Shown: piece by piece, positions 23,999 through 56,246 of the stretch
Position numbering within the stretch: the stretch's first letter is position 1
How the letters are laid out: each line of letters starts with the position of its first letter
Assembly: GCF_000955905.1 (NCBI RefSeq)
Contig: NZ_CP011097.1
Coordinates: forward strand, 1,204,582-1,268,581
Source: Candidatus Nitrosotenuis cloacae
GTDB taxonomy: Archaea; Thermoproteota; Nitrososphaeria; Nitrososphaerales; Nitrosopumilaceae
Length of the DNA stretch: 64,000 bases
Direction: 5' to 3'
The notes under the pieces: model-generated
What the model saw: the letters and a program-made list of their open reading frames with translations, nothing else
The model's database searches: none
What the model was told of the DNA's origin: nothing
Made by a program: the position numbers and the translations under genes

Positions 23999-24099
23999 CG
24001 CCGGGAGAGAGATTTGAACTCTCGAACCCTTGCGAGTACGCGCTTTATGGTTTTGTGTAATTTCCAGGCGCGCGCCCTACCAGGCTAGGCGACCCCGGC
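23999..24099 (-). tRNA. tRNA-Ser(GGA) with intron
   Basis: Cloverleaf on the minus strand: acceptor GCCGGGG/TCCCGGC with discriminator G, D-stem GCCT/GGGC, anticodon stem CGCGC/GCGCG, anticodon GGA, T-arm GAGAG-TTCAAAT-CTCTC. A long variable arm (ACTC-GCAA-GGGT) is diagnostic of class II tRNA-Ser. A 17-nt intron (24045-24061) interrupts positions 37/38. TGG in the anticodon loop pairs with CCA in the intron and AAA bulges sit on both sides, a bulge-helix-bulge splice motif. CCA is not encoded; a T-run (TTTTTC) follows as terminator. Confidence 0.93.
24045..24061 (-). other. Intron of tRNA-Ser(GGA)
   Basis: 17 nt between anticodon-loop positions 37 and 38. Cut sites AA|A on both bulges give a normal 7-nt loop CTGGAAA after splicing. 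This is the canonical archaeal intron position, processed by the tRNA-splicing endonuclease. Confidence 0.8.
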
Positions 24100-55487: not shown

Positions 55488-55496
55488 CTTATATTG
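55488..55496 (+). promoter_or_regulatory. TATA box of tRNA-Gln
   Basis: CTTATATTG centred about 29 bases before the mature 5' end of the tRNA, predicting little or no 5' leader. Confidence 0.55.
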
Positions 55497-55542
55497 TCAT
55501 GGCTTTGTGGTTTTTTCAGTAGCCCGATAGTCTAGCGGTCAA

Positions 55543-55560
55543 ATGAATTTTTCAGGCTAA
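55543..55560 (+). other. Noncanonical D-loop intron of tRNA-Gln
   Basis: 18 nt. The junctions fold as a bulge-helix-bulge: GGTC pairs with GGCT (G-T, G-C, T-G, C-G), bulges AAA and AAG flank it, and TGAA pairs with TTCA around a TTT loop. Splicing at AA|A and AA|G leaves a nine-base D-loop AGCGGTCAA containing the expected GG and terminal A. Confidence 0.75.
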
Positions 55561-55576
55561 GGATTCGGCGCTCTGG

Positions 55577-55591
55577 ATCATTAGAGAGGAT
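55577..55591 (+). other. Anticodon-loop intron of tRNA-Gln
   Basis: About 15 nt after position 37 (CTCTGG|...|A CGCCG). CTCT of the loop pairs with AGAG in the intron; the 3' bulge is 4 nt or more, so this is a relaxed bulge-helix-bulge and the exact cut may shift by one or two bases. Confidence 0.75.
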
Positions 55592-55646
55592 ACGCCGAGA
55601 CGGCAGTTCGAATCTGCCTCGGGCTACTTTTTATTATATAATTTTA

Positions 55647-56246
55647 CTATCTTGATGCTTGAGCTACTCTTTCCAGTTCGTTCTTTTTCTTGACAGATGG
55701 GGCTGCCGCATCATTTGCCGCTGCTGCAATTAGGTGCTCTGCCAAATATTCTTCCATTGATTTTGGATTTGAAAATGATGATTCTTTTACACCATCAGAG
55801 ATGAATCTCAGTGCCAGATCAACTCGTCTCAGTGGTGATACATCAACTGATACATGGTATGCAGTGCCTCCATATACGATTCTGGTGGTGTCCTCATTTG
55901 GTGACGAGTGCTCGATTGCGCGAACTAATATCTCGATTGGATTTTTGCCAGTCTTTAGATGAATGATTTCAAATGCAGCCTTGACGGTGTTCATTGTTCG
56001 TGCCTTTTTGCCGCCCATTCTACCTGTGTTCTTGGCATATTTTTTGCCAAAGTGCATCAGCTTGTTTGCCAGTCTTTCTACAATGTTTACCTCTGCTTTG
56101 TTGAATTTTTTGAGTGCAGATGAGCCAAATGTATGTGGATAGATTACCTTTCTTAGTGAAATAACAGTCTTTAGTCCAGGATCTTTTATCTCAATTCCAG
56201 ATAGATCCCATTTTCTAAATAACAAAAGATTCTGAGTCTCGGCCAT
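55647..56246 (-). CDS. rps7: Small-subunit ribosomal protein S7
   Basis: 199 residues, archaeal length. MHFGKKYAKNTGRMGGKKARTMNTVKAAFEIIHLKTGKNPIEILVRAIEHSSPNEDTTRIVYGG holds the S7 signature. Primary 16S-binding protein of the head. Last gene of the operon before tRNA-Gln (opposite strand); EF-1A and S10, which often follow, are not here. Confidence 0.95.
   Translation of the reverse strand: MAETQNLLLFRKWDLSGIEIKDPGLKTVISLRKVIYPHTFGSSALKKFNKAEVNIVERLANKLMHFGKKYAKNTGRMGGKKARTMNTVKAAFEIIHLKTGKNPIEILVRAIEHSSPNEDTTRIVYGGTAYHVSVDVSPLRRVDLALRFISDGVKESSFSNPKSMEEYLAEHLIAAAANDAAAPSVKKKNELERVAQASR

Follow-up and report, generated by a model that had tools for sequence, protein, structure and literature searches.

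Two probable introns in a tRNA-Gln(CTG) gene of an ammonia-oxidizing archaeon and the history of the one in the D-loop

An apparent tRNA-Gln(CTG) gene in this DNA carries extra nucleotides in both its D-loop and its anticodon loop, which raises the question of whether the two inserts are introns spliced from the precursor, parts of an unusual mature tRNA, or marks of a decaying gene. The window, by which we mean the whole stretch of 64,000 nucleotides analyzed (C1:1204582-1268581), belongs to a complete genome of 1.62 Mb. The organism is an ammonia-oxidizing archaeon whose nearest named relatives, based on the uS7, uS12, NusA, and L30e genes, are Candidatus Nitrosotenuis and related metagenome genomes. 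We conclude that both inserts are very probably archaeal tRNA introns that would be cut by the splicing endonuclease and joined by RtcB to give tRNA-Gln(CUG) (probability of about 0.94), based on their clean removal in silico, the empty sites in relatives, covariation, and the presence of endonuclease and RtcB genes.

Anatomy of the tRNA-Gln(CTG) gene

The gene and the other features discussed here are listed in Table 1. An earlier note, made from the sequence alone, had placed a two-intron tRNA-Gln(CTG) at exactly these coordinates and predicted that a normal tRNA would result from the removal of 18 plus 15 nt. Both statements were borne out: the coordinates are exact, and ARAGORN called a clean 73-nt tRNA-Gln(ctg) once both inserts were removed (AGCCCGATAGTCTAGCGGTCAAGGATTCGGCGCTCTGGACGCCGAGACGGCAGTTCGAATCTGCCTCGGGCTA). 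The product has the acceptor stem AGCCCGA/TCGGGCT with discriminator A, the T-arm GGCAG-TTCGAAT-CTGCC, and the anticodon CTG. With one insert removed, ARAGORN assigned the wrong isotype in default mode and recovered a clean tRNA-Gln(ctg) only when an intron was permitted. With introns allowed on the native gene, it reported Gln(ctg) but chose a 24-nt intron that is wrong. The native sequence was missed by ARAGORN in default mode and fell below the gathering score of the Rfam tRNA model, but these misses are no evidence against the gene because neither tool models introns of this type. The whole precursor folds mildly better than shuffled sequences (z = -1.8), which is too weak to argue from, and we therefore relied on comparative evidence.

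Table 1. Coordinates of the tRNA-Gln(CTG) gene, its parts and neighbors, other tRNAs, and putative splicing genes. Positions are those of the window unless marked C1 or genome.
Feature	Position	Strand	Evidence or remark
TATA-like box TTATATTG, ~25-32 nt upstream of the tRNA	55489..55496	+	Sequence; likewise placed in relatives
Pre-tRNA-Gln(CTG), 106 nt, two inserts	55521..55626	+	Homologs in all 22 sampled genera of the family (g19 match weak)
Exon 1, tRNA positions 1-21: AGCCCGA TA GTCT AGCGGTCAA	55521..55542	+	Same GGTCAA+GGAT join in intronless relatives
Predicted D-loop intron, 18 nt (ATGAATTTTTCAGGCTAA), between positions 21/22	55543..55560	+	Fold; helices kept in relatives
Exon 2: D-stem 3' strand, anticodon stem 5' strand, C32-U33-C34-U35-G36-G37	55561..55576	+	Sequence
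Predicted anticodon-loop intron, 15 nt (ATCATTAGAGAGGAT), canonical 37/38	55577..55591	+	Fold; empty sites in relatives
Exon 3: A38, anticodon stem 3' strand, variable loop, T-arm, acceptor 3' strand, discriminator A73	55592..55626	+	
uS7 gene, convergent neighbor; then uS12, NusA-like, and L30e genes	55647..56246	-	Synteny anchor
tRNA-Ser(GGA)	23999-24099	-	37/38 insert of ~17 nt
tRNA-Gln(TTG), intronless	106919-106991 (genome)		Loop CTTTGGA
tRNA-Leu(TAA) (L118)	C1:388685-388805	+	D-arm and anticodon-loop inserts, by eye
tRNA-Met (L254)	about 1350326-1350438 (genome)	+	D-arm and anticodon-loop inserts, by eye
tRNA-Trp (L117)	about 403510-403670 (genome)	-	D-arm and anticodon-loop inserts, by eye
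tRNA-Arg(CCT) (L116)	about 1590290-1590385 (genome)	-	D-arm insert, by eye
tRNA-Val(CAC) (L103)	C1:601098-601191	+	Insert in the variable-loop region
Catalytic endonuclease subunit, 177 aa	C1:724003-724254		Whole-length match to Aeropyrum pernix and Sulfolobus catalytic subunits
Structural endonuclease subunit, 193 aa	C1:1188023-1188274		His missing
RtcB ligase, one copy	C1:413086-414390		

The TATA-like box is likely the gene's own promoter, and relatives have TTATATTC/G at equal spacing upstream of their tRNA-Gln(CTG). By the search used, the tRNA adjoins uS7 in 76 of 80 named loci.

In the D-loop, the exon strand G18-G19-U20-C20a (GGTC) pairs with the intron strand GGCU (GGCT in the DNA) to form a central helix, two of whose four pairs are G-U. 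The 5' bulge AAA occupies positions 55541 to 55543, an inner helix, TGAA/TTCA, closes a 3-nt loop, and both helices are reproduced in the minimum-free-energy fold. The insert therefore has the central exon/intron helix, 3-nt 5' bulge, and inner helix of a bulge-helix-bulge motif. It lacks the strict form's 3-nt 3' bulge beside an outer helix, and we classify it as relaxed and HBh'-like because on the 3' side AAG faces AGC as an internal loop beside the D-stem. Thus, of the "proper" bulge-helix-bulge described earlier, the two pairings and the 5' bulge stand and the 3' bulge does not. The intron boundary was set by the cutting rule for such motifs (after A21 and before G22), and shifting it by up to 2 nt leaves the mature tRNA unchanged. 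Among random 18-nt inserts, the central helix arose in 2.7% of draws and the central helix together with a 4-bp inner helix in ~0.05%.

The anticodon-loop insert is predicted to form the helix CTCTG/TAGAG, together with a 3' bulge (AGGATA) and a loop (GATCAT) of 6 nt each. Its location at 37/38, short helix, single bulge, and opposing loop are those of a bulge-helix-loop, a relaxed form of the motif (PMC6379350), in agreement with the relaxed 3' bulge that had been noticed at this second site. The empty 37/38 site reads CTCTGGA in two genomes of another family (L139/L143) and CTTTGGA in Gln(TTG); positions 37 and 38 of this intronless tRNA match those of the spliced form. Most relatives retain CTC/GAG and the GGATA after it, and some versions are disrupted (e.g., those with ACAAAG), so that conservation of this short helix is partial.

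Conservation of the D-loop insert among relatives

We searched 151 genomes of the family at the DNA level and found matches in 143 of them, representing all 22 genera (g19 weakly). The 174 Gln(CTG) loci, with some genomes contributing twice, reduced to 91 distinct sequences of the D-arm plus anticodon arm. The earlier note had proposed comparing this tRNA across the Nitrosopumilaceae, and the comparison shows the D-loop intron in nearly every genus, as well as exact empty sites.

The helices of the D-loop insert are conserved with compensatory changes. Among 50 distinct D-loop introns, all 200 central-helix pairs are standard, with C20 always opposite G (21/21) and T20 always opposite A or G (29/29). 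At the first inner-helix pair, all 50 have T-A or C-G, and the second alternates among G-C, A-T, T-A, and C-G. At central-helix positions 18 and 19, the exon is invariant and changes can occur on one side only. When the 3' strands were permuted among introns, pairing in the central helix averaged 96% (maximum, 99%) versus the observed 100%, and pairing at the first three positions of the inner helix averaged 76% (maximum, 83%) versus 96%; none of the 2,000 permutations reached the observed pairing, in a control that retains sequence relatedness. The intron ranges from ~11 to 25 nt in length, and family-wide the exons show almost no variation. Small genomes of genus g5 (L070, L072, and L080) have some of the shortest versions, in which an insert of ~11 nt consists of GTC/GAC and a 7-nt loop with no inner helix.

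These observations bear on the alternative that the anticodon-loop insert alone is an intron, with the D-loop insert retained after maturation to give a larger D-arm. The hairpin is indeed predicted to fold, and the D-loop of some relatives (L071 and L259) differs by a few exonic bases. However, its pairing would sequester G18-G19, which is required for the contact between the D-loop and T-loop, and the flanks are fixed around an insert of anywhere from 11 to 25 nt. Moreover, in most of genus g12 (Nitrosopumilus) the site reads GGTC-AAGGAT, which matches the predicted splice exactly and restores a standard D-loop with no compensating change elsewhere in the tRNA. Based on these exact empty sites, we reject a retained D-arm as highly improbable and treat the D-loop insert as an intron.

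Gain, loss, and replacement

The D-loop intron is also found in other families of the order. Both inserts occur in families f7, f12, and f13 (L157, L158, and L150), and members of f8 (L148, L149, and L151; same order) have both plus a third near position 9/10. Class-level family f21 (L152/L153) has the anticodon-loop insert and no D-loop insert, and f18, the source of the CTCTGGA loop above, has neither. The simplest reading of this distribution makes the anticodon intron the older one and puts the gain of the D-loop intron at the order's base or close to it.

Within Nitrosopumilus, we compared the state of the D-loop intron with a tree of four neighboring genes from the same contigs (1,788 columns). 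Loci with and without the intron are interleaved (L204, L231, L199, and L238 versus L240, L226, L207, L228, L229, and L230), which forces at least 4 changes on well supported branches; if only losses are allowed, we count 7 to 9. The empty site is exact every time. The pattern indicates that the D-loop intron was lost exactly, and several times, within this genus. Parsimony on the neighboring-gene tree favors one loss followed by three regains (4 changes) over 7 to 9 independent losses; we nonetheless consider it unlikely that the intron was also regained at the same nucleotide. If regain did occur, a tRNA intron would be entering and leaving a single site over short periods, next to an anticodon intron that stayed in place.

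Our preferred mechanism for the losses is slippage between direct repeats. In the sister genera and intron-bearing Nitrosopumilus, the intron 3' strand is usually GATC, placing TCAA on both sides (GGTCAA...GATCAA), and slippage from one copy to the other would produce precisely the empty site that is seen. The flanking repeat is 0 to 2 nt in most other clades and 2 nt in the window. Because the TCAA repeat is common to one clade, its association with loss is not independent evidence. For Nitrosopumilus, conversion by a cDNA of the mature tRNA seems unlikely, since every copy there without the D-loop intron keeps the anticodon intron. A short alignment of the flanks had no obvious foreign tract of the kind that whole-gene transfer might leave as the source of the patchy pattern. 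The D-loop intron thus appears to offer a well-sampled example of very long retention followed, in one genus, by repeated and exact loss, and its natural variants make the mechanism of loss testable (direct-repeat slippage, replacement by a paralog, or recombination with a copy already spliced).

Two single-cell genomes of a marine Group I lineage (L174 and L189) encode an intronless Gln(TTG)-like tRNA with the anticodon CTG and C33 at this locus, close to the uS7 gene (reverse strand, at about 3920), and in this lineage the two-intron gene was apparently replaced by its paralog. Such a copy at the locus, together with the failure of default tRNA finders to report the gene, could be taken to mean that the two-intron gene is a decaying pseudogene and that tRNA-Gln(CUG) comes from elsewhere. 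We give this very little credence: exon sequences barely differ within the family, the insert has compensatory changes, and the only other Gln tRNA found in the complete genome is Gln(TTG).

Processing, other tRNAs, and known systems

The genome contains two tRNA_int_endo genes, as do nearly all complete genomes of the order. Aligned to the Sulfolobus and Aeropyrum proteins, the 177-aa subunit retains the Tyr, His, and Lys positions, which we take to be the catalytic positions of this endonuclease family. By their sequences, the 177-aa and 193-aa proteins are the catalytic and structural pair of an alpha2beta2 enzyme, the type reported for Thaumarchaeota (PMC4090602) and known to remove relaxed motifs, including those in D-loops (PMC6379350). 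In the catalytic subunit, K35-P36-K37 aligns with K44-P45-R46 of the Crenarchaea-specific loop of A. pernix, which is needed for efficient and broad cutting (PMC12397907), and the stretch YYGKPxGxxKPK is conserved in the catalytic subunits of sampled relatives. This alignment fits the earlier expectation of a broad-specificity endonuclease; at the level of gene presence, the genome has both an endonuclease suited to relaxed motifs and RtcB.

We propose that the gene is transcribed into a 106-nt precursor, from which the alpha2beta2 endonuclease would release the D-loop intron by cutting its relaxed bulge-helix-bulge after A21 and before G22, and the anticodon-loop intron by cutting its bulge-helix-loop at 37/38. 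RtcB would then ligate the exons into a normal tRNA-Gln(CUG). As the two motifs do not overlap, no order of removal would be required. That the inserts are instead remnants of mobile elements, which have been suggested to give rise to tRNA introns by integrating into archaeal tRNA genes (PMC3293823), or self-splicing introns is scarcely credible, given that a group I/II intron would not fit into 15 or 18 nt, that the bulge-helix-bulge architecture is conserved, and that the window has no Rfam match to group I/II families (one tRNA was the sole match).

A census of the genome's tRNAs, combining Rfam matches with reading by eye, points to further inserts. By eye, those at or near 37/38 include Ser(CGA), Ser(GGA), Leu(CAA), and Tyr(GTA); tRNA-Leu(TAA), -Met, and -Trp appear to have both D-arm and anticodon-loop inserts, and tRNA-Arg(CCT) has one in the D-arm. 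Rfam scores the latter four loci poorly or in part. Since Leu(TAA), Met, and Trp look alike by eye, the two-intron layout seems usual here, and we do not share the view that two introns in one tRNA are notable for this genome or order. The tRNA-Ser(GGA) gene is the only tRNA reported by Rfam in the window. The insert of tRNA-Val(CAC) (AAGGATGTAAAATCCCGCAAGGGTC) is probably another noncanonical intron. In several families of the class, Gln(TTG) has an insert near 9/10 (L133-L137, L140, L142, L144-L147, and L154, of which L144 belongs to the window's own family), and some of these genes also have D-arm (GCAAGG...CTTGAATA) or anticodon-loop inserts.

Here, and probably in most relatives as well, the tRNA-Gln(CTG) gene is the only one found for tRNA-Gln(CUG), and its product would need two splicing events; annotation without archaeal intron models therefore loses a decoding tRNA. 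tRNAscan-SE 2.0 includes an intron model trained on Thaumarchaeota, reports 107 noncanonical introns in the phylum, and covers multi-intron tRNAs in general (PMC8450103), consistent with the earlier remark that such introns are already known. Those introns are of the same phylum and class as the ones described here, and the text of that paper as searched names no Nitroso- genus. Given that the program models the phylum's introns, this gene may well already be among the GtRNAdb predictions. Our literature searches on Nitrososphaera and Nitrosotenuis returned no paper evidently about their tRNA introns, and the history of conservation and exact loss of the D-loop intron was not found in the literature searched.

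Noncanonical archaeal tRNA introns with the relaxed motifs hBH, HBh', and BHL have been reviewed (PMC6379350 and PMC4090602), and the D-loop intron is of the same kind, with a short insert, an exon/intron central helix, a 3-nt 5' bulge, a tRNA left intact after removal, and an alpha2beta2 endonuclease in the genome. Its particulars are the 21/22 site, the central helix with its two G-U pairs in this copy, and the internal loop on the 3' side. The multi-intron tRNAs of Thermoproteales (Pyrobaculum and Thermofilum; PMC3218864 and PMC8450103) similarly have two to three introns per gene and the same type of enzyme. In contrast to those, the gene described here comes from an ammonia-oxidizer lineage, keeps two sites across much of an order, and appears to have undergone exact, recurrent loss of one intron. 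Multiple introns and D-arm introns have thus been described before, and what is new is a long-conserved D-loop intron that seems to have disappeared repeatedly, each time exactly.
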